The position numbers were made by a program, and so were the translations under genes. From Acidobacteriota bacterium (lineage in GTDB: Bacteria > Acidobacteriota > Thermoanaerobaculia > UBA5066), in assembly GCA_030278895.1 (NCBI GenBank), contig JARXKK010000002.1, positions 36,512-81,521 on the forward strand: a stretch of 45,010 nucleotides of DNA, read 5' to 3'. Positions 8,443 to 21,997 of the stretch are shown piece by piece; position 1 is the stretch's first letter, and each line of letters starts with the position of its first letter. The notes beneath the pieces were generated by a model. That model had not been told where the DNA came from. It did not search any database and worked only from the letters and a program-made list of their open reading frames with translations.

Positions 8443-9105
8443 ATGTTCATCGGCCACGCCGCCGTCGGGTTTGCCTCGAAAGCGGCCGCGCCCCGCGCAT
8501 CGCTCGGGGTCCTCCTCGCGGCGCCCTTCCTTCTCGACCTCCTCTGGCCGGTGTTCCTTCTGACGGGAGTGGAGAGCGCCAGCATCGAGCCCGGCAACAC
8601 GGCGTTCACGCCGATCGCCTTCGACAGCTACCCGTGGTCGCACAGCCTCCTCATGGCCCTCCTCTGGGGCGCGCTCTTCGGCTTTCTGGTTCACATGGTG
8701 TCGCGCAGCGTCACGGCGGGCGCCGTCGCGGCGCTCGGCGTCGTAAGCCACTGGATCTGCGACGCCGTCGTCCACCGTCCCGACCTTCCGCTGTCGCCCA
8801 ACGGGACGATCTTCGTCGGAATGGGGCTGTGGAACTCACGCGCCGGAACGCTCGCCGTCGAGCTGCCGCTCTTCGCGCTCGGCGTCTGGCTCTACCTGCG
8901 GACGACGAAACCGAAGGATGCGATCGGCCGATGGGCGCTCGCGGGGCTGATCGCGTTCTTCCTGCTCGCGTATGCCGGGGCGGCCTTCGGCCCGCCTCCG
9001 CCGAACATGACGGTCGTCGCGTGGTCGGGACTCGCCGGGCTGATCCTTATTCCATGGGCGGTGTGGGTCGACCGGCACCGGAACCTGGTGGACGAAGAGA
9101 CCTAG
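8443..9105 (+). CDS. YdjM-like membrane-bound metal-dependent hydrolase family protein
   Basis: 220 aa with five to six hydrophobic helices. The histidine and aspartate pattern (MFIGHAAVGF, LLDLLWP, YPWSHSLL, SHWICDAVVHRPDLPL) resembles the LexA-regulated YdjM/DUF457 group of inner-membrane proteins, thought to coordinate a metal, although no substrate is established. An AAGGGAGAAG ribosome site precedes ATG 8443. It lies 18 bases after the S53 peptidase and may end that operon. Its stop codon overlaps the convergent phosphoesterase gene by four bases. Confidence 0.7.
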   Translation: MFIGHAAVGFASKAAAPRASLGVLLAAPFLLDLLWPVFLLTGVESASIEPGNTAFTPIAFDSYPWSHSLLMALLWGALFGFLVHMVSRSVTAGAVAALGVVSHWICDAVVHRPDLPLSPNGTIFVGMGLWNSRAGTLAVELPLFALGVWLYLRTTKPKDAIGRWALAGLIAFFLLAYAGAAFGPPPPNMTVVAWSGLAGLILIPWAVWVDRHRNLVDEET

Positions 9106-11597
9106 GGCTTGTCGCCCCGCGGCGCGACGAGCGGAACGCGAACGAAGGCGGCGTTCACCGGAGCGGGCATTTCGGAGTCCGCGCCCCGCACGCTCTTCCA
9201 GACCGCCTCGTTGAGCTCGAGGTCGGGAGCCGCGTCCTCCTTCGTGAAATCCCACGTTCCGACGAGGGCCTGCATGGGCGCGCCGTCCGCGTTCATCTCG
9301 TAGAACGGAATCTTCGTCTCGCGATGGACGAAGGGCGCGGGATCGGGCGCGTCCGAGAAGGCAGCCGTCATCGGGGTCGCGGACGCGTCGTGCTGCGAAA
9401 GGGGCGGCAGGCCTAGAATCAGCTCCATCGTCCGGAGCATCGACACCGTCGAGTACATCGTCGAGTCGACGAAGCCCGCGCGGCGCGTGTACGGCGAGAT
9501 CACGAGGCCGACGGTTCGGTGGGCGTCGACGTGGTCCGACCCGTTCTGCGCGTCGTCCTCGATCACGAAGATCGCGGTTTCCTTCCAGAAGGGTGAGTGC
9601 GAGATCGCCTCGACGAGGCGCCCAAGCGCGACGTCGTTCTCGGCGACCATCGCGCGCGGCGTGCGCTCGCCCTTCTTCGTCCCCGCCGTGTGGTCGCCTC
9701 CGAGCCGCACGATCGTGAGGCGCGGCATCTCCTTCGCCTTCACGAAGCCGCGGAATTCCTTGAGGAAGACGTCGACGCGCGCATTGTCGAGGATTTCGAG
9801 GTCGAAGCCGGGATAGAAGGGGCACGTGTTGTCCTTCAGCGCGCCTTCCATCCCCGTCTCGAGGGTCAGCTTCGTCGGCGTCATCTCGGCGGAGACGCCG
9901 ACGAACTCCCCGTAGTTGCGCAAGGTCAGCCCCGCGCGTGCGGCGGCATCCCAGAGATAACCGTTCGTCGGGAAAGCGTTCGGGTCGTTTCCCTCGAACA
10001 GGTAATCGAAGCCCTTGCCGCCGTAATTCGGCGGCCAGATCTTCTCGACGAAATCCGTCGCATAGGCCCCCATCGACCAGTTATGACCGTCCGCCGAGAC
10101 CTCGGCGTCGCAGTAGAGGTTGTCGAGGAGGACGAACTCCTCGGCGAGCGCGTGGGCGTTCGGCGTCACGTCGCGGCCGAAGAGGACGAGCGCGGGGTCG
10201 CCGTTCCCCTGCGTCAGGTCGCCGAGGACCTGGTCGTACGTTCGGTTCTCGCGAATGACGTAGACGACGCGCTTGATCGGCGAGGCGCCGCCCGGCGCCG
10301 CCGGGACGACGGCCGAAGCCTTGACGGGGGCGGCGCCGCGCGCCCCGGGACGCCGGTTCGCGTAAGCGCGCGCCGTGAGGGCCGTGAGCGCCTTCGGCGA
10401 CGGGGCCTCGATCCGCGAGACAGAGCCCGGGATCGTGCGTGTCTTCTTCCAGGGCTTCCCGTCGCCCTTCTTCGTGGGGTCGGGTCCGCCGACCGCGTTC
10501 GACCACGACCACCCACCTTTCGCGTTCGCGACCCAGAGCGTCTTCCCGTCCGAGGAGAGCGCGAGCGCGGCCGGATACCAGCCGCTCGGGACGAAGCCCT
10601 TTGTCCGCGCCGCGCGCGGATCGCCGCCCACGTCCAGGACGGCAACCGCGTCGTCGTCGGCGTTCGCGACGAAGAGCGTCTTCCCGTCCGGCGAGAGGGC
10701 GACCGCGTTCGGCGTGGATCCGTCCGGCAGCGCGTCGGCCGAGGGCGTGCCGGGGCCGTCCGGACCGAGCGCGACGGAGATCTGGCGCACCACCGTCCGC
10801 GACGCCACGTCCACGGCAGCGACGAGGTTCCGGTTCGACTGGGCGACGAAGAGCGTCTTCCCATCCGGCGAGAACACGAGGGCCGACGGATGATCGGCGG
10901 TCTTCACGGTCGCGACGACCGAGCCCTTGACGGCATCGACGAGCGACACGGACGCCGCGCCCCAGTTCGCGACGGCGAGAAGGCTCCCCTCAGGCGAGAG
11001 GACCGGCCGGTAAGGATGGACCCCGACGGGAACGGACGCCGCGACCGTGCGCGACGCGAGATCGATCCTCACGATGTCGTTCAGGAACAGTCGCGCGACC
11101 CAGAGGCTCTTCCCGTCCGCGGTCACCGCGAGACCGGACGGCGTCGCGTCGAGCTTGGCCGGTTCGTCGTCCCTCCGGAGCGGAAGCGGGTCCTCCGGAA
11201 CGAAGCGGTCGCTCTCGAGCCGGTAGACGAGGACGTTCTTCCCACCCGCCCCCGCAAGATAGACCCGCGAGCCGTCCGGAGACACCGCGAGGCCCAGCCA
11301 GGACTTTTTCACGGGCTCCTTCGCGAGCGACTTTCCCGTCGCCGCATCGAGTAGGTGGAGCGACTGGTCGTCCGCGCCCATGCAGGCGACGACGACGCGC
11401 TTGCCGTCGGGCGTGAGGGCGAGGGCGAAGGGATAGGGGGCGACCTCGGTCTGTGTCCCCGTGGGCGTCAGGAGCCGGCCGTTCGGGAGGAGCATTTCGC
11501 CCGTCGAGAGCTTTCCGGGGACGAGACGGTCGGAGGCCGCGACGGAGAAGGCAAAAGCGAGGGTGACGAGGGGGAACAGACGGACGGCTCGGCGCAT
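9102..11597 (-). CDS. Secreted YVTN beta-propeller / phosphoesterase fusion protein
   Basis: 831 aa. A signal peptide (MRRAVRLFPLVTLAFAFSVAAS) leads into YncE/YVTN beta-propeller repeats to about residue 390, each with an SPDGKTLFVAN-type strand. The C-terminal half is a phosphoesterase of the phospholipase C/acid phosphatase group: it begins VVYVIRENRTYDQVLGDL, contains a LGGDHTAG segment and ends in the SPYTRRAGFVDSTMYSTVSMLRTMELILGL block. The expected location is the periplasm or cell surface. The propeller may bind a partner or polymer while the C-terminal domain hydrolyses phosphate esters; the substrate is unknown. It is transcribed divergently from lpdA. Confidence 0.85.
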   Translation of the reverse strand: MRRAVRLFPLVTLAFAFSVAASDRLVPGKLSTGEMLLPNGRLLTPTGTQTEVAPYPFALALTPDGKRVVVACMGADDQSLHLLDAATGKSLAKEPVKKSWLGLAVSPDGSRVYLAGAGGKNVLVYRLESDRFVPEDPLPLRRDDEPAKLDATPSGLAVTADGKSLWVARLFLNDIVRIDLASRTVAASVPVGVHPYRPVLSPEGSLLAVANWGAASVSLVDAVKGSVVATVKTADHPSALVFSPDGKTLFVAQSNRNLVAAVDVASRTVVRQISVALGPDGPGTPSADALPDGSTPNAVALSPDGKTLFVANADDDAVAVLDVGGDPRAARTKGFVPSGWYPAALALSSDGKTLWVANAKGGWSWSNAVGGPDPTKKGDGKPWKKTRTIPGSVSRIEAPSPKALTALTARAYANRRPGARGAAPVKASAVVPAAPGGASPIKRVVYVIRENRTYDQVLGDLTQGNGDPALVLFGRDVTPNAHALAEEFVLLDNLYCDAEVSADGHNWSMGAYATDFVEKIWPPNYGGKGFDYLFEGNDPNAFPTNGYLWDAAARAGLTLRNYGEFVGVSAEMTPTKLTLETGMEGALKDNTCPFYPGFDLEILDNARVDVFLKEFRGFVKAKEMPRLTIVRLGGDHTAGTKKGERTPRAMVAENDVALGRLVEAISHSPFWKETAIFVIEDDAQNGSDHVDAHRTVGLVISPYTRRAGFVDSTMYSTVSMLRTMELILGLPPLSQHDASATPMTAAFSDAPDPAPFVHRETKIPFYEMNADGAPMQALVGTWDFTKEDAAPDLELNEAVWKSVRGADSEMPAPVNAAFVRVPLVAPRGDKP

Positions 11598-13281: not shown

Positions 13282-13309
13282 TTGACGCCCGGGCAAACCT
13301 CTCTTACAT
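13282..13309 (+). promoter_or_regulatory. Promoter of the apbE-porin-FMN-binding operon
   Basis: TTGACG (13282-13287) and TTACAT (13304-13309) are separated by 16 bases and resemble sigma-70 -35 and -10 boxes. The predicted transcript start falls inside the adjacent inverted repeat, leaving a very short leader before ATG 13332. Confidence 0.5.
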
Positions 13310-13330
13310 TGCGACTGAGACTGAGTCGCA
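13310..13330 (+). promoter_or_regulatory. Fur-like operator overlapping the transcription start
   Basis: TGCGACTGAGACTGAGTCGCA has 7-base perfect inverted arms (TGCGACT/AGTCGCA). It can also be read as tandem hexamers TGCGAC-TGAGAC-TGAGTC, the architecture of ferric-uptake-regulator boxes. It sits directly between the -10 box and the first codon of the operon, an ideal position for repression. Fur-family identity is inferred from resemblance to the TGCGAATGAGAATCATTCGCA type of site; no fur gene is in the window. Confidence 0.45.
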
Positions 13331-13331
13331 C

Positions 13332-14339
13332 ATGCCGATCGAAACACTTACTCGCCACCTCGCCGCCATGGGAACCGTTTTTTCCCTCGCGGTGGCCGCC
13401 CCGTCACGCGACGCCGCCCTCGTGGCGAGTGAACAGGCGGTGCGCGCCGTCGAGGCGGCCGAGAGTCTTCTCTCGACATGGCGGGACGACACTCCCCTCG
13501 CCCGGCTGAACGCGGCGACGCCCGGCGATTCCCACGAGATACCAGCCCCGCTCTTCGTATTGCTGAAGAGAGTCTTTGAATGGGAAAAGGCGACCGGCGG
13601 AGCTTTCGACCCGGCCGTGGGTCCGCTCGTGACGGCGTGGGGATTGCGCTCGGGCGGCCGCATTCCTGACGGCGCGGAGCTGCGACGGGCGCGCGACGCG
13701 GCGAGCCCTGGCCTCTTCACCTTTGAAGAATCCACTCTCCGAATCTCCCGTCTCGACCCCGCCGCCCGCATCGACGAAGGCGCCTGGGGCAAGGGCTGGG
13801 CTCTCGACCGGGCGGCTGAGGCCGCGCGCGCCGCGGGGGCCACGGCAGTCGTTCTCGATCTCGGCGGCCAGATCCTCTCGTCCGGAGAGGAGACCTCCGT
13901 CGCCGTCGCGCATCCGCGTGACCGCGCGCGCACGGTCGCGACGATCCGGCTGAAGAACGCCTCGGCCTCGACGTCCGGCAACTCCGAGCGCGGCCTCGCC
14001 GTCGACGGGCGCCGCGTCGGCCACATCCTCGACCCGCGCACAGGCGAGCCCGCCCCCGATTTCGGTTCGGTGACCGTCGTCGCGAAGGACGGGCTCACGG
14101 CCGACGTCCTCTCGACGGCGTTTTTCGTCCTCGGGCCCGAAGAAGGCATGGCCTTGTCCTCGCGCCTTCGTGCAAGCGGTGTGGCTCACGAAACGCTGTT
14201 TTGCTTTGAAGGTGAAGACGGGCGGGATCTGCGGGCGTCGATGTCGCCCGGGATGAGGCTCCTCGTCAAGCCTCCGACGCGGGGCGCGCCTCTTCCTCTT
14301 ACTCATTCAAAGAAATCCCCTGAAGGAGTTCACCCATGA
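13332..14339 (+). CDS. apbE: FAD:protein FMN transferase (ApbE family)
   Basis: 335 aa from ATG 13332. Family motifs appear in order: AAMGTVFSLAV near the N-terminus, GAWGKGWALDRAAE, VVLDLGGQILSSGE, TSGNSERGLAVDGRRVGHILDPRTGEPA and TADVLSTAFFVLGPEEGM, which forms the Mg/FAD site. ApbE proteins split FAD and attach FMN to a Thr/Ser of acceptor proteins carrying an SGAT-like motif; an FMN-binding-domain protein with such a motif is encoded two genes downstream. Unlike the usual periplasmic lipoprotein form, no signal peptide or lipobox is visible and none exists upstream in frame. The last four bases overlap the porin start (ATGA). Confidence 0.92.
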   Translation: MPIETLTRHLAAMGTVFSLAVAAPSRDAALVASEQAVRAVEAAESLLSTWRDDTPLARLNAATPGDSHEIPAPLFVLLKRVFEWEKATGGAFDPAVGPLVTAWGLRSGGRIPDGAELRRARDAASPGLFTFEESTLRISRLDPAARIDEGAWGKGWALDRAAEAARAAGATAVVLDLGGQILSSGEETSVAVAHPRDRARTVATIRLKNASASTSGNSERGLAVDGRRVGHILDPRTGEPAPDFGSVTVVAKDGLTADVLSTAFFVLGPEEGMALSSRLRASGVAHETLFCFEGEDGRDLRASMSPGMRLLVKPPTRGAPLPLTHSKKSPEGVHP

Positions 14340-15712
14340 TTCGACCCTGCCCGACGCGCGGCGCCGCCGCGGCATTCAGTCTTTCTTTCTTTCTAAGCAG
14401 CTTTTTCTTCTCGTCTCCCCTTCTCGCCGACGAGCCGCCGAAGGCGTCCGACCCGGCCGCGGAGCAGCGGCTGAAGGACCTCGAGCAGAAGCTCGACGTC
14501 CTCACGAAGGAGATCGAGGCGATACGGCTCGGCGAGGCGCCCTCCGCGGCTCCGGCGCTCACGCTCGGCGGGGCTCCCGCGCTTGCCCTCGACTCGGCTT
14601 CGCATTACGGCCTCGGCCCTGCCGCGGCGCGCGTCTATGCGCGAAAGGGCGTTTCGATCGGCGGGTACGGCGAGGCTCTCTACCAGAGCTTCGCATCGTC
14701 GAAGCAAAATGGAACACCGTCCGGCCGCACGGACACGATCGATCTTTCTCGCGCCGTGTTCTACTTCGGCTACAAGTTCGACGACCACTTCGTCTTCAAC
14801 TCCGAGGTCGAGTTCGCGCACGCCGTCGCCGCGTCCGACAAGGCGGGCGAGGTCGAGATCGAATTCGCCTACGTCGACTGGCTGAGCCCGTCGAGGGCCT
14901 TCCGCGCGCGAGCAGGTCTCTTGCTCGTCCCGATGGGCTTCCTCAACGAGCTGCACGAGCCGCCCACGTTCTTCGGCGCGCGCCGCAACACCGTCGAGAC
15001 GCTCATCCTGCCTTCCACGTGGCGGGAGCTCGGCTTCGGCGGCTACGGGGACGCGGGCCCGCTCGCGTACCGCCTCTTCCTCGTGAATGGCCTCAACTCC
15101 GGGGGGTACTCGGCCGAGGGAATCCGCGAGGGCCGGCAGGAGGGCTCGCTCGCGAAGGCGCGCGACTTCGCCCTGACGGGCCGCCTCGACTTCGTCGGAG
15201 TGAACGGCCTCGTGGCGGGCGCATCGTTCTTCACGGGCTGCTCGGGTCAGGGGCGGACAACGACATTCGGCGAGACCGTCTGCGGCCGCACCACCGTCTG
15301 GGATCTTCACGCGGACTTCCGCTGGCGCGGGCTCTCGCTTCGGGCGCTCGTCGCCGGTTCGACGATCGGGGATACGGCAGCGATCAACGAGCTGAACGGC
15401 TTTTCAGGCGAGGAGGGCGTCGGGAGCCGCCAGCGCGGCTGGTACGCCGAGGCCGGGTTCGACGTCCTGACACTCGTCTCGCGCACGAAGCTCTCGCTCA
15501 CGCCCTTCGCGCGATACGAGGAGTGGGACACCCAGCGCGCGGTCCCCGACGGCTTCTCCCGAAACCCCGCGAACGACGCGCGCCAGTGGACCGCCGGGGT
15601 CGTCTTCAAGCCCATCCCGCAAGTCGTGCTCAAATTAGACGGTCAGTGGCGGAAGAACGCGGCGAGGAATGGCGTGAACCAGGTCAACGTCGCGATGGGG
15701 TACGAGTTCTGA
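14336..15712 (+). CDS. Outer-membrane beta-barrel porin
   Basis: 458 aa. A hydrophobic signal peptide (FSLSFFLSSFFFSSPLLA) is followed by a short coiled coil (AAEQRLKDLEQKLDVLTKEIEAIRLG), then a long beta-rich region of alternating aromatic and charged strands. The protein ends VNVAMGYEF, with the terminal Phe required for BAM recognition. It resembles phosphate-selective/OprO-type or carbohydrate porins that have an N-terminal coiled coil. As the second gene of the flavin operon, it may admit the electron acceptor, metal complex or flavin used by the periplasmic partner; that link is inferred only from operon structure. Confidence 0.82.
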   Translation: MIRPCPTRGAAAAFSLSFFLSSFFFSSPLLADEPPKASDPAAEQRLKDLEQKLDVLTKEIEAIRLGEAPSAAPALTLGGAPALALDSASHYGLGPAAARVYARKGVSIGGYGEALYQSFASSKQNGTPSGRTDTIDLSRAVFYFGYKFDDHFVFNSEVEFAHAVAASDKAGEVEIEFAYVDWLSPSRAFRARAGLLLVPMGFLNELHEPPTFFGARRNTVETLILPSTWRELGFGGYGDAGPLAYRLFLVNGLNSGGYSAEGIREGRQEGSLAKARDFALTGRLDFVGVNGLVAGASFFTGCSGQGRTTTFGETVCGRTTVWDLHADFRWRGLSLRALVAGSTIGDTAAINELNGFSGEEGVGSRQRGWYAEAGFDVLTLVSRTKLSLTPFARYEEWDTQRAVPDGFSRNPANDARQWTAGVVFKPIPQVVLKLDGQWRKNAARNGVNQVNVAMGYEF

Positions 15713-16242
15713 GGCGCGTCTTCACTGCCGCCCTCCTCGCCGTCTCGTCCCTCGGCGCCGCGAAGAGCTTCCTCACGCAGGAGGAGGCTCTGCGTCTCGC
15801 GTTCCCGAAGGGCGCGGTCGTGACGCGCAAGACGGCCTTCCTGTCGGAAGCCGATCGCGCGGAGGTCGCGCGCCGCTCCGGCGGCGCGCCGCCGCCCGGA
15901 CTCGTCGCGTATTACGTCGCTTCGGTGGACGGCAATCCGGCTGGCACCGCATATTTCGACACACACGTCGTGCGCACGCTCCCCGAGACGATTCTCGTCG
16001 CGGTGGATCCGAAGGGCGCCATCTCGAGAATCGAGGTTCTCTCGTTCTCCGAGCCCGAGGAGTACCTCCCCCGCGGAGCCTGGTACGGCCAGTTCCCCGG
16101 CAAGGCGCTGAGCGACGAACTCTCCGAGAATAAGGGTGTCCGCCCGGTGACGGGTGCGACGATCACGGTGCGCGTCACGGTCGAGGCGGCGCGGCGCGTG
16201 CTCGCGCTGGACGCGTTCCTCAAAGAGAAATCCCGCCGATGA
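15709..16242 (+). CDS. Exported FMN-binding domain protein (NqrC/RnfG-type domain)
   Basis: About 177 aa. The sequence from MRRVFTAALLAVSSLGAAKS is a good signal peptide, but the only codon giving that N-terminus is CTG 15709, whose last two bases form the porin's TGA (CTGA overlap); the nearest in-frame GTG lies inside the porin gene. The FMN_bind pattern is visible: YFDTHVVRTLPETILVAVDPKGAISRIEVLSFSEPEEY, then GQFPGK and RPVTGATITVRVTVEAARR. Thr151 of TGAT is the likely FMN attachment site for the ApbE encoded by the same operon, though the usual Asp three residues before the TGA(T) is Arg here. It is expected to act as a periplasmic one- or two-electron carrier. Confidence 0.8.
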   Translation: MRRVFTAALLAVSSLGAAKSFLTQEEALRLAFPKGAVVTRKTAFLSEADRAEVARRSGGAPPPGLVAYYVASVDGNPAGTAYFDTHVVRTLPETILVAVDPKGAISRIEVLSFSEPEEYLPRGAWYGQFPGKALSDELSENKGVRPVTGATITVRVTVEAARRVLALDAFLKEKSRR

Positions 16243-16673
16243 AGCGCTGGGCCGTCGTCCTGAACCACCTCGCGTGCCTTCTGGTCGGGCTCTCGGGCGT
16301 CGCGTACGGAGTCATGAAGTACTTCATGGCCGGCTCGGACCCCGATTCGCGCGCCGGTCACCCGTGGCAGCAGCCGATGCTCAAGCTCCACGTCCTCGCG
16401 GCGCCGTTTCTCGTCTTCGCGCTCGGCCTCGTCTTCAGCGGTCACGCGCTCAAGCGCCTTCAGGCCGGCGAGGACCCGGGCCGCGCCAGTGGAACCGGCC
16501 TCCTCGCGTTCGCGACCCCCCTCGTCCTCACGGGCCCCTTGATCCAGGTCTTCACGGGCGACGCCGCGCGGCAGTGGACCGGGTGGATCCACGCCGCGCT
16601 CGGCGCCGTCTACGTTCTCGCTTACGCCGCGCACCTCCTCAAGAAGGCCCCCGCGGACGGCGAGGCGGGTTAG
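16239..16673 (+). CDS. Small four-helix membrane protein, likely cytochrome b-like
   Basis: 144 aa with four hydrophobic helices and no Cys. Histidines sit at matching depths in helix 2 (His51 and His69) and helix 4 (His118 and His132), with a further His10 in helix 1. This is the spacing expected for two b hemes in a four-helix bundle such as DUF4405 or cytochrome b561-like proteins. It overlaps the FMN-binding protein gene by four bases (ATGA) and could pass quinol electrons to that flavoprotein. Heme binding is inferred from the His pattern, not from a family match I can name with certainty. It converges with the slipin gene, overlapping by four bases. Confidence 0.65.
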   Translation: MKRWAVVLNHLACLLVGLSGVAYGVMKYFMAGSDPDSRAGHPWQQPMLKLHVLAAPFLVFALGLVFSGHALKRLQAGEDPGRASGTGLLAFATPLVLTGPLIQVFTGDAARQWTGWIHAALGAVYVLAYAAHLLKKAPADGEAG

Positions 16674-18103: not shown

Positions 18104-18505
18104 TCAGGCGACGTCGGCGAGAGTCGTCTTCTCGAGCTTCGTGGAGACGAAGTCCCGGATCTCCTTGAACACCTTCAGGAGCCTCTTCTCGCGTTCCACG
18201 GGCGTCGACTCGTAGAAATACGTGCTGACCGAATCCGTAGGCGCGAGGGCCCCGTCGAGCAGGCGGACGACCTCTGCCAGCGTGATCTTCGAGGCAGGGC
18301 GCCCGAGCCGGTAGCCCCCGTGCGGCCCCTTCCGGCTCCTCACGAGGCCCGCCCGTTTGAGCGCCATCAGGAGCTGCTCGAGGAACTTCGCGGGCAGCCC
18401 CTGGGCCTCCGCAATGGCGGAAACCGCGACGTACCCCTCGCCCTTCGCGCGGGCGAGGTGGACGAGCGCGAGGAGGGCGTATTCGCTGCGGCGGGTGAGC
18501 TTCAC
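18104..18505 (-). CDS. Rrf2-family transcriptional regulator (cysteine-free)
   Basis: 133 aa from GTG 18505, which gives the classic Rrf2 N-terminus MKLTRRSEYALLALVHLA; the ORF track's ATG start adds 35 residues read across the promoter. The winged helix includes VSAIAEAQGLPAKFLEQLLMALKRAGLVRSRKGPHGGYRLGRP, the standard Rrf2 DNA-recognition block. The loop that carries the Fe-S cysteines in IscR/NsrR has none here, and the whole protein lacks Cys, so it is not a cluster sensor. That resembles CymR, the sulfur-metabolism repressor. It is divergent from a sulfate uptake operon with an IscR-like operator in between, so control of sulfate transport is the likely role. Confidence 0.88.
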   Translation of the reverse strand: MKLTRRSEYALLALVHLARAKGEGYVAVSAIAEAQGLPAKFLEQLLMALKRAGLVRSRKGPHGGYRLGRPASKITLAEVVRLLDGALAPTDSVSTYFYESTPVEREKRLLKVFKEIRDFVSTKLEKTTLADVA

Positions 18506-18529
18506 GAGTTGATTGTCCTCCCTCGGATA

Positions 18530-18554
18530 ATACTTGACTAGACTAGTGGGATAA
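18530..18554. promoter_or_regulatory. Rrf2/IscR-type operator between regulator and sulfate operon
   Basis: ATACTTGACTAGACTAGTGGGATAA has the interrupted dyad layout of IscR type-1 sites (ATA-x3-GACT-x5-AGT-x3-TA). It covers the -35 region of the sulfate operon promoter and also a TATTAT -10-like box of the Rrf2 gene on the minus strand, so one bound dimer could repress both. Confidence 0.6.
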
Positions 18555-18561
18555 GTAACAT
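18534..18561 (+). promoter_or_regulatory. Promoter of the sulfate ABC transporter operon
   Basis: TTGACT (18534-18539) and TAACAT (18556-18561), spaced by 16 bases, lie about 42 bases before the first codon of the substrate-binding protein. The -35 is inside the Rrf2-type operator. Confidence 0.5.
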
Positions 18562-18603
18562 AAAGGAAGCGAAGAAGAAGATTCTCATAGAAGGTAATAG
18601 GGC

Positions 18604-19587
18604 ATGGCACCGTCCGGTCTGCTTCTCCTGACGTTCATCCTCGCGTCGCCTCCCGCGGCGCTTCTGAACGTCTCCTACGACCCGACGCGCGAGCTTTACG
18701 ACGAGATCAACACCGCGTTTCGTCGTTCGTGGGAACCGACCCACGGCCCGCTTGCGATCCGCCAGTCGCACGGCGGCTCGGGAAAGCAGGCCCGCGCGGT
18801 CATCGACGGGCTCGAGGCCGACGTGGTGACGCTCGCCCTCGCGGGCGACATCGACGCGATCGCCGACAGGAGCGGCCTTCTCCCGGCCGCGTGGCAATCC
18901 CGGCTGCCGCAGAACAGCGCCCCGTACACGTCCACGATCGTTCTCGTCGTCCGCAAGGGCAACCCGAAGAAGATCCGCGACTGGGAGGACCTCGGAAGGC
19001 CAGGCGTCGCCGTCATCACGCCGAATCCGAAGACCTCGGGCGGAGCGCGCTGGAACCACCTCGCGGCGTGGGGCTGGGCGCTTCGCCGGCCCGGCGGGAA
19101 CGAGGCGGCTGCGCGCGATTTCATGACCCGCTTCTACAAAAACGTCCCGGTCCTCGATGCCGGTGCCCGCGGGTCGACCGTGACATTTGCGGAGCGGGGC
19201 CTCGGAGACGTCCTCGTCGCATGGGAGAACGAGGCCCTGCTCCTGACGAGGGGGATCGGCAAGGGCAGATTCGAGATCGTCGTCCCGTCCGCCAGCATCC
19301 TCGCCGAGCCGCCGGTCGCCCTCGTCGACAGGAACGCCGACAAGCACGGGACGCGCGCGGCGGCTCAGGCCTACCTGGAATTTCTCTATACGGACGAGGG
19401 GCAGACGATCGTCGCGAAACACTACTACCGCCCACGTGCCGCGGGCGTCCTCGCCCGCCACGCCATGGAATTCCCGAAGATCTCGCTCTTCACGATCGAC
19501 GAGGTCTTCGGCGGCTGGAAAAAGGCTCAGAGAGCCCACTTCGAGGACGGCGGCATCTTCGATCAGCTCGCCGTGCCAGCCAGATGA
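18604..19587 (+). CDS. Sulfate/thiosulfate ABC transporter, periplasmic binding protein
   Basis: 327 aa. A short signal peptide ([14 protein letters not shown]) precedes [20 protein letters not shown], the signature opening of Sbp/CysP proteins. Ligand-site segments [26 protein letters not shown] and [19 protein letters not shown] are intact, as is the C-terminal [28 protein letters not shown]. It captures sulfate or thiosulfate and delivers it to the membrane permease. Sbp and CysP cannot be separated here, so no symbol is given. It is the first gene of a three-gene operon joined by ATGA overlaps. Confidence 0.94.
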
Positions 19588-21263
19588 GCGGCGCCACCCG
19601 CCGCCACGGCGTCCTCCCCGGATTCGGGCCGGCCCTCTCGCTGGCGAGCCTCTACGTGGGACTCGTCGTCGTCCTGCCGCTCGCGGCCCTCGCCCTGCGC
19701 GCCACGAGCCTGACGGGGCCGGACTTCGTCCGCATCGTCACCGCGCCCCGGGCACTCGCCGCCTACAAGCTGAGCTTTGGCGCCGCCTTCCTCGCCGCGC
19801 TCCTGAACGCCGTCTTCGGGCTCCTCGTCGCGTGGGTCCTCGCGCGCTACCGCTTCCGCGGCCGTGCGCTCCTCGACGCGTTCGTGGACTTCCCGTTCGC
19901 GCTTCCGACGGCGGTCGCCGGACTCACGCTGACGGCGCTCTATTCGGGCCAGGGCTGGATCGGGCGGTTCCTCGAGCCGCACGGGCTCAAGGTCGCATTC
20001 GCGCCCGCGGGCGTCGTCCTCGCGCTCACGTTCGTCGGCCTGCCGTTCGTCGTGCGCGCCGTCCAGCCCGTCCTTCAGGACCTCGACCCCGAGCTCGAGG
20101 AGGCCGCCGGCGTCCTCGGAGCCTCGCGCCTGCAGGCGTTCCTCCGCGTCGTCTTCCCAAACCTTCTTCCGCCGCTCCTCACGGGCTTCACGCTCGCGTT
20201 CGCGCGCGCGCTGGGGGAGTACGGCTCGATCGTCTTCATCTCCGGGAACCTCCCGATGAAGACCGAGATCGCGCCGCTCCTGATCGTGACGAAGCTCGAG
20301 CAGTTCGACGAGGCCGGCGCCACGGCGATCGCCGTCGTCCTCCTCCTCGCCTCGTTCGCGCTCGTCTTCGCCGCCAACACACTCCAGCGTTGGACGCGGC
20401 GGCTCGCCGGCGCCTCCGCGATGACCGCGAGCCGAGGTTTCCGCCCCGCGCCGACGCTCCTCGAACGGCCGGCCGTTCGAAGGGGCCTCATCGCAGCCGC
20501 GATGGCATTCCTCGGGCTCTTCGTCTTCCTCCCGCTCGGGTCCGTCTTCGCGCAGGCTCTCCGCAAAGGCCCGGCGGCCTATTGCGCTGCCATCACGGAG
20601 CCGAACGCCCTCGCCGCGATCCGGCTCACGCTCCTGACGGCCGCGCTCGTCGTGCCGTTCCACCTCGTGTTCGGCCTCGCCACGGCCTGGCTCGTCGCGA
20701 AGTTCCGCTTCCGCGGCAAGCCCCTCCTCGTGACACTCGTGGACCTTCCGTTCGCGGTCTCCCCCGTGATCGGCGGCCTCGCCCTCGTCCTGCTCTTCGG
20801 GCGGCGAGGCCTCCTCGGGCCCTTTCTCGCGGCGCACGATTGGAAGGTGATCTACGCGGTGCCGGGAATCGTCCTCGCGACGATCTTCGTGACCTTCCCG
20901 TTCGTGACGCGCGAGGTCCTCGCGGTCCTGGAAGCGCAGGGCAACGACGAGGAGGAGGCCGCGCTCACGCTCGGTGCCGGCGGGTGGCAGACGTTCTTCC
21001 GCGTGACGCTTCCGAAGGTGCGCTGGGGGCTCCTCTACGGCGTCGTCCTGTGCAACGCGCGGGCGATGGGAGAATTCGGCGCCGTGTCGGTCGTGTCGGG
21101 TCACATTCGCGGCTTGACGAACACGATTCCGCTCCACGCGGAGATCCTCTACAACGAGTACGACCTCGCCGGCGCGTTCGCCGTCGCGTCGCTCCTGACG
21201 TTCCTCGCGCTCGTGACGCTCGGCGTCCGAAAGCTCGAAGAAGCGCGGGAGGCCGCGCGATGA
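19584..21263 (+). CDS. Fused sulfate ABC permease (CysT-CysW in one ORF)
   Basis: 559 aa holding two complete permease units. Residues 1-275 match CysT, with its EAA loop [30 protein letters not shown] and the [12 protein letters not shown] segment. Residues 290-559 match CysW, with [30 protein letters not shown] and the terminal [21 protein letters not shown]. Each unit has about six membrane helices. There is no stop between them; an internal ATG (codon 280, AMTASRG) marks where a separate cysW start would lie. In most bacteria these are two genes, so this is a fusion unless a base error removed a stop. Overlaps of four bases link it to both neighbours. Confidence 0.9.
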
Positions 21264-21997
21264 GCGTCGAGGTCAGGAACCTCGCGCGGCGCTTCACGGA
21301 CGACGGCCCGCCCGCCGTGGCCGACGTGTCGTTCACGGCGCCAACCGGCGCGATCACGGCCGTGCTCGGCCCCTCGGGCGCGGGGAAATCGACGGTCCTC
21401 CGGATCATCGCGGGCCTCGAGGAGCCCGACGGGGGCCGCGTCCTCCTCTCGGGCGAGGACGTCACGGAGACCTCCGTCCAGAAGCGCGGCGTCGGCTTCG
21501 TCTTCCAGGGCTACGCGCTCTTCGGGCACCTCTCGGTTCGCGAGAACGTCGTCTTCGGCCCGCGCGTCCGTGGCGTCCCCCGAAAGAAAGCCCTGGCGCT
21601 CGCGAACGAGCTTCTCCACCGCGTGCAGCTCGACGGCCTCGGCGACCGACGCCCCTCGGAGCTCTCGGGCGGCCAGCGGCAGCGTGTCGCGTTCGCGCGC
21701 GCCCTCGCGGTCAGCCCGCGCGTCCTCCTCCTCGACGAGCCGTTCGGCGCCCTCGACGCCGGCGTGCGGCTCGAGCTCGGCGAGTGGCTGCTCAGGTTGC
21801 ACGACGAAACCGGCCTCACGACGCTCCTCGTCACGCACGACCAACCCGAAGCGTTCGCGCTCGCCGGGCACGTCGTCGTGCTTCTCGACGGCACGGTCGC
21901 TCAGGCCGGCACGCCCGGGGAGCTGCGCGCGCATCCGAAAGGCGAGCGCCTCGCGTCCTTCCTCCGTGTCGTGAGGCGCCAGCCCGCCGCCTCCTGA
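21260..21997 (+). CDS. cysA: Sulfate ABC transporter ATP-binding protein, short form
   Basis: 245 aa. Walker [10 protein letters not shown] (37-45), Q-loop FVFQGYALF, signature LSGGQRQR (135-142), Walker B LLLDEP (156-161) and switch His193 are all present, so it should hydrolyse [24 protein letters not shown] is typical of CysA. The protein ends soon after the nucleotide-binding domain, about 100 residues shorter than the usual CysA, so the C-terminal regulatory/TOBE domain is absent. As the last gene of the operon it supplies both copies of the ATPase for the fused permease. Confidence 0.93.

Follow-up and report, generated by a model that had tools for sequence, protein, structure and literature searches.

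What is the purpose of an operon that joins genes for a flavin mononucleotide (FMN) transferase, a porin-like barrel, a predicted flavoprotein and a small putative cytochrome? We found these genes at positions 13332-16673 of a 45,010-nucleotide stretch of soil Acidobacteriota DNA (assembly GCA_030278895.1, contig JARXKK010000002.1), hereafter called the window. All four are open frames on the forward strand. The sequence-only reading of this DNA had proposed an extracytosolic electron path, running from quinol through heme b and covalent FMN to an acceptor admitted by the porin. The conserved gene set, with heme to covalent FMN as the most natural interpretation of it, is consistent with that proposal. 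However, a link to iron had been missed: there is a predicted Fur box before the operon, and Fur, FeoB, FeoA and FTR1 genes are neighbours in relatives. We consider it likely that the operon encodes a Fur-repressed, assimilatory system for periplasmic iron reduction.

A conserved gene block and its predicted Fur box

The operon comprises apbE (13332-14339), a gene for an outer-membrane porin-like β-barrel with an N-terminal coiled coil (14336-15712), a gene for a secreted FMN_bind protein with an RnfG-like domain (15709-16242) and a gene for a four-helix membrane protein, predicted to be a diheme b cytochrome (16239-16673). As had been noted from the sequence, each gene overlaps the next by 4 bases: ATGA at 14336, CTGA at 15709 and ATGA at 16239.

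A consensus scan located one σ70-like promoter, where 0.1 were expected. This site is on the forward strand at 13282-13310 and consists of TTGACG (13282-13287), a 17-nucleotide spacer and TACATT (13305-13310). The predicted Fur box, TGCGACTGAGACTGAGTCGCA (13310-13330, strand-neutral), overlaps the end of the promoter-like sequence and lies immediately next to the start of apbE. It is palindromic at 18 of 21 positions, with the inner 15-mer TGAGACTGAGTCGCA. Genomes G002, G003, G015 and G026 each have a single copy of the same box, in every case at this operon. At a locus from another family (L042), a textbook Fur box, TGAGAATTATTCTCA, is found in the same place. By eye, a similar promoter layout directly precedes the Fur box at loci L026 and L027. 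The prediction of a Fur box for this operon is new here.

For an independent test, 20 loci of the phylum were scored with three canonical Fur consensus forms and no others, at a threshold of at least 12/14. The loci had been chosen to spread over many families before any Fur-box scoring. Thirteen canonical boxes were found in the 12.5 kilobases (kb) upstream of the operons, at 12 of the 20 loci, versus 1 in the remaining 267 kb (P=4e-17). This P value is generous because the 'outside' DNA is mostly coding and the loci share ancestry, but the contrast is still large. Many of the boxes, such as TGAGAATGATTCTCA and TGAAAATGATTTTCA, are of the iron-Fur type. In Ideonella, Novosphingobium and Sphingomonas the operon has weaker Fur-like boxes in front of it (11/14 each).

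The genes that adjoin the block in relatives from several families also point to iron. They encode Fur (L041 and L044, and PF01475 matches in G002, G015 and G026), FTR1 (L029 and L031) and FeoB with FeoA/iron-dependent repressor (L044). Together with the Fur box, these neighbours make iron the likely substrate. FeoB is encoded in the window's genome and, class-wide, in 25 of 26 genomes that carry the block versus 70 of 94 others, a comparison uncorrected for kinship.

The block itself is widespread. The four-helix protein was found in 21 of 61 genomes (the window's own and its relatives). In all 21 class-level loci the porin, FMN_bind and cytochrome genes are contiguous and in the same order, down to ~35% identity. 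The window and 9 of the 20 other class-level loci have apbE immediately upstream; an adjacent apbE is missing from ten loci of genus g18, and one further locus ends at a contig end. Phylum-wide, the count of Acidobacteriota genomes with the cytochrome is 100 of 396, from 54 of 210 genera; one genome has two copies and the others have one. A close relative of the organism, PLZI01000124 (isolate palsa_351), encodes this cytochrome at 85% identity. At the 20 phylum loci described above, porin, FMN_bind and cytochrome are together in 17, and apbE adjoins in 16, upstream or downstream. Beyond Acidobacteriota the evidence consists of plasmid records, from Ideonella dechloratans, Bradyrhizobium, Methylocystis and two sphingomonads (Sphingomonas and Novosphingobium). 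Profile comparison supports homology of the Ideonella porin, FMN_bind protein and cytochrome. In Sphingomonas a different barrel (DUF6662) replaces the porin, and there was no porin match in the Novosphingobium plasmid block. Viral contigs yielded no relatives. The sequence-only reading had suggested a search of other genomes, and would have taken absence of the block as a sign against it. The block recurs across the phylum and thus is not a chance arrangement.

Several observations weigh against control by Fur and a role in iron reduction. First, neither an iron transporter nor a fur gene directly adjoins the window's own block. Second, other regulators of the Fur family can recognise boxes of this kind. 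Third, in the ten loci of g18 (L030, L032-L040) apbE does not adjoin the block and there is no Fur box upstream of the porin gene, and no Fur protein was found in the g18 genome tested (G049). An element like TTGACAAATAGGACYAA...ATCCACTAT, which resembles an IscR/Rrf2-type site, is common to the five g18 promoters read; our guess is that another iron sensor binds here. Fourth, starting from the ATG at 13332, the window ApbE shows no obvious signal peptide, unlike several relatives (hydrophobic leaders were readable by eye in L041-L044). Finally, the AlphaFold model of the cytochrome, made from a two-sequence alignment, shows four helices only and has a predicted local distance difference test (pLDDT) score of 58, which leaves the fold unproven.

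Fur-like boxes also stand before two other genes. At L047:1501-1521 (G000:C99:6114-6134), a second, slightly altered copy of the box, TGCGACTGATTCTCAGTCGCT, ends 15 base pairs (bp) before an outer-membrane barrel gene of the PF13557 family, which is possibly another member of the same regulon. In Ideonella dechloratans (L103), a Fur-like box is ~40 bp before a PF03150 peroxidase gene.

The predicted electron path

The first protein had been called an FMN transferase, and its match to PF02424 confirms this (E=1.9e-61; 208.4 bits against a curated cut-off of 25.6). ApbE-type relatives in the PDB were matched down to 4e-52, and the protein was aligned to PDB 1vrm. The motifs ADxLST and TSG...HxxDP are conserved, and residues T214, S215, H231, D234, D258 and T262 are invariant.

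For the third protein, which the sequence-only reading had called an FMN acceptor, the match is to FMN_bind (PF04205; 9.7e-7, 29.8 bits against a cut-off of 22). The same domain was recognised in 16 of 16 relatives. In comparisons with RnfG structures (5.3e-5), the sequence TGATIT (16150-16167) aligns with the RnfG flavinylation site. The core of this motif, GA[TS]x[TS], is kept in nearly all relatives; Sphingomonas has GGTLS. We predict that Thr153 (16165-16167) is the site of FMN attachment. The window genome, in an assembly ~92% complete, has a sole ApbE and a sole FMN_bind protein above cut-off, both in this block, so the pair are very likely enzyme and substrate. The FMN_bind gene starts with CTG. 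At the same site a congener has TTG, overlapping the porin stop, and use of a rare start codon is thus likely, though unproven.

The fourth protein has 144 amino acids and four helices. The sequence-only reading had remarked on paired helix histidines, and these proved to be invariant. Helix 2 contains His51 (16389-16391) and His69 (16443-16445), 18 residues apart in an HX17H arrangement. Helix 4 contains His118 (16590-16592) and His132 (16632-16634), 14 apart in an HX13H arrangement. The spacing is exact in all aligned members, and all four histidines are present in 20 of 20 phylum loci and in the five plasmid versions from α/β-Proteobacteria. From this invariance, the protein is probably a b cytochrome of minimal size with two hemes. 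Helices 2 and 3 are joined by a basic loop, which suggests a position close to the periplasm for His51 and His118 and one close to the cytosol for His69 and His132. Predicted pairing of His51 with His118, and of His69 with His132, would make two stacked b hemes.

The protein had no meaningful Pfam match on its own, and a PDB sequence search with it returned nothing meaningful. Membership of DUF4405 (PF14358) was considered and rejected, on score and on helix count (four, not six). The four central histidines expected of DUF4405 are present. However, the window protein did not match PF14358, and the best relative scored 18.9 bits against a cut-off of 26.7. In hhalign comparisons with DUF4405 and cytochrome b proteins of the phylum, the probability was at most 34% (negative controls, at most about 1%); helices 3 and 4 weakly resemble the DUF4405 unit. 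The proteins appear to form a family of compact cytochromes, with four helices and probably two hemes, that Pfam and NCBIfam models missed here.

The description of the second protein as an outer-membrane channel stands for the family and less so for the window protein, which had no meaningful Pfam match of its own. Its family has BBP2 and Porin_O_P matches (5 of 14 members match BBP2, best 1.6e-4), a distant homologue is annotated "porin", the C-terminus reads ...GYEF and the gene is kept in the block. Hence, the label porin reflects family-level evidence. An AlphaFold model, again from a two-sequence alignment, was unusable (pLDDT 29). On a Parabacteroides distasonis plasmid (L104:5872-9851), genes for an imelysin-family protein and a di-heme oxidoreductase come after a distant homologue of the porin, a possible further link between this porin family and iron.

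Taken together, the four invariant membrane histidines, the conserved GATxT-type motif and the single ApbE and FMN_bind proteins make electron transfer from heme to covalent FMN the most natural interpretation. We suggest the following scheme. When iron is scarce, Fur would leave 13310-13330 and the four genes would be made together. The porin-like barrel would admit small ferric species or chelates to the periplasm. Two b hemes in the four-helix protein would carry electrons across the inner membrane, probably from the quinol pool. ApbE would attach FMN to Thr153, and the cytochrome would pass electrons to that FMN. The flavoprotein could then reduce Fe(III) to Fe(II), which would enter via FeoB or, in some relatives, perhaps the FTR1 permease. 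The gene set, its conservation, the motifs, the Fur box and the iron genes beside the block in relatives are observed; the binding of Fur, the binding of heme, the attachment of FMN, the electron donor, the topology and iron as the substrate are inferred.

Other explanations and known systems

The Fur box and its neighbours allow other explanations. The operon could encode a periplasmic reductase linked to copper, manganese or peroxide, under a Fur-family regulator such as the PerR, Mur or Zur types, which read similar boxes. In the Ideonella dechloratans plasmid a gene for a CCP/MauG-type diheme peroxidase (PF03150; L103:4460-5665) precedes the porin, and multicopper oxidases and a ferritin-like gene adjoin the Methylocystis block. 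However, many of the boxes are of the iron-Fur type and the neighbours include FeoB, FeoA and FTR1. The fit is poorer and we regard this explanation as unlikely. A copper-starvation identity (pcuABCDE) was also considered and set aside; a search gave nothing that ties pcuABCDE to this set.

If iron is the substrate, it might be released reductively from ferric siderophores, in the manner of FoxB or FsrB, rather than taken from inorganic or weakly chelated forms. A TonB receptor is near the Ideonella block, and PepSY-type clusters are proposed to act in this way (PMC8238504). Conversely, at the loci read the outer-membrane partner is consistently a small barrel, porin-like or other, and not a TonB receptor, which favours small ferric species. 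We judge release from siderophores to be slightly less probable still. Less probable than either of these is an arrangement in which the FMN_bind protein binds to the porin and the two together move electrons, not iron alone, across the outer membrane. Ferric iron would then be reduced outside and Fe(II) imported via the same barrel, with the very small diheme cytochrome as inner-membrane wire: a flavin version of a porin-cytochrome conduit. Dissimilatory or extracellular respiration, with the porin as conduit for respiratory electrons dumped on external Fe(III) or another acceptor, shares that low standing: the same parts would suffice, the porin is in the block at most loci and the flavin could pass electrons on, but repression when iron is sufficient is the wrong logic for respiring iron, the relatives' neighbours are uptake genes, and CXXCH, the multiheme c cytochrome motif looked for in an Mtr/PCC-type porin-cytochrome conduit, is absent, by reading, from the four window proteins.

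How does assimilatory iron reduction by this operon compare with known systems? The sequence-only reading knew of no standard named system with this set. For the exact four genes that holds, as no description was found in the papers searched, although the supplementary cluster lists of PMC8238504 may hold the set unnamed; the main texts of PMC8238504 and PMC11334425 do not mention porins or Acidobacteria. The wider kind, Fur-repressed clusters for ApbE-flavinylated iron reductases, is published (PMC8238504 and PMC3751524). Meheust et al. (2021) described ApbE clusters whose membrane partners are of the NapH, MsrQ, PepSY, DsbD and NQR/RNF types; several of these clusters are linked to iron, and those with PepSY are repressed by Fur (PMC8238504). 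The four block proteins gave no Pfam match to PepSY, MsrQ, NapH, DsbD or NqrB-type partners. Iron-responsive, Fur-regulated genes of Caulobacter include DUF2271, DUF4198 and ApbE (PMC3751524). Like our operon, the Caulobacter cluster CC_3059-3063 (PepSY/DUF2271/DUF4198/ApbE; PMC8238504 and PMC3751524) is under Fur control and combines ApbE with a periplasmic protein that is flavinylated, a membrane partner predicted to transfer electrons and a transporter of the envelope. It differs in that our carrier is FMN_bind rather than DUF2271, the HX17H/HX13H four-helix protein stands in place of PepSY, and there is no DUF4198.

Clusters of MsrQ-like proteins with FMN_bind and ApbE, some with iron transporters, likewise combine these two proteins with a b-heme membrane protein (PMC8238504). 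However, MsrQ-like proteins have six helices (PF01794), a family to which no block protein matched. The flavinylation-associated DUF4405 cytochromes of Huang et al. (2024) have four membrane histidines and co-occur with apbE, and the second helix pair here weakly resembles their HX13H unit (PMC11334425). Conversely, they have six helices rather than four, and our protein falls below the DUF4405 cut-off. In P19/FTR1 clusters FMN_bind is near the FTR1 iron permease, but PMC8238504 describes them without a core membrane electron-transfer part; no P19 was noticed in the loci read, where no P19 profile search was made. Bradyrhizobium FsrB (COG3182, FoxB-like) is also a cell-envelope iron reductase and feeds FeoAB, but is of FoxB type and siderophore-directed (PMC10760861). 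FrcB, cited there as a diheme ferric reductase, is likewise of the cell envelope. Our best reading places the block among the known ApbE-linked iron systems (PepSY/DUF2271, MsrQ, P19), as a variant whose membrane cytochrome differs and which brings a porin of its own.

The operon would thus be a likely route of iron acquisition for Acidobacteriota, an abundant soil phylum. Because plasmids of Bradyrhizobium, Methylocystis, Ideonella and sphingomonads carry this set as well, it can be tested in bacteria that are amenable to laboratory work. According to PMC10760861, an inorganic ferric iron reductase must exist in Bradyrhizobium japonicum, and its identity is unknown; our block is a candidate, if that strain carries it.

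Other features of the window

Two other features of the window were also recorded. Within 18104-21997, a gene for an Rrf2-type regulator (18104-18610, minus strand) overlaps the start of an apparent sulfate-type ABC transporter cluster, with a binding protein, two permeases and an ATPase. At 9102-11597 on the minus strand, one protein fuses a lactonase-like β-propeller (PF10282) to a phosphoesterase domain (PF04185).

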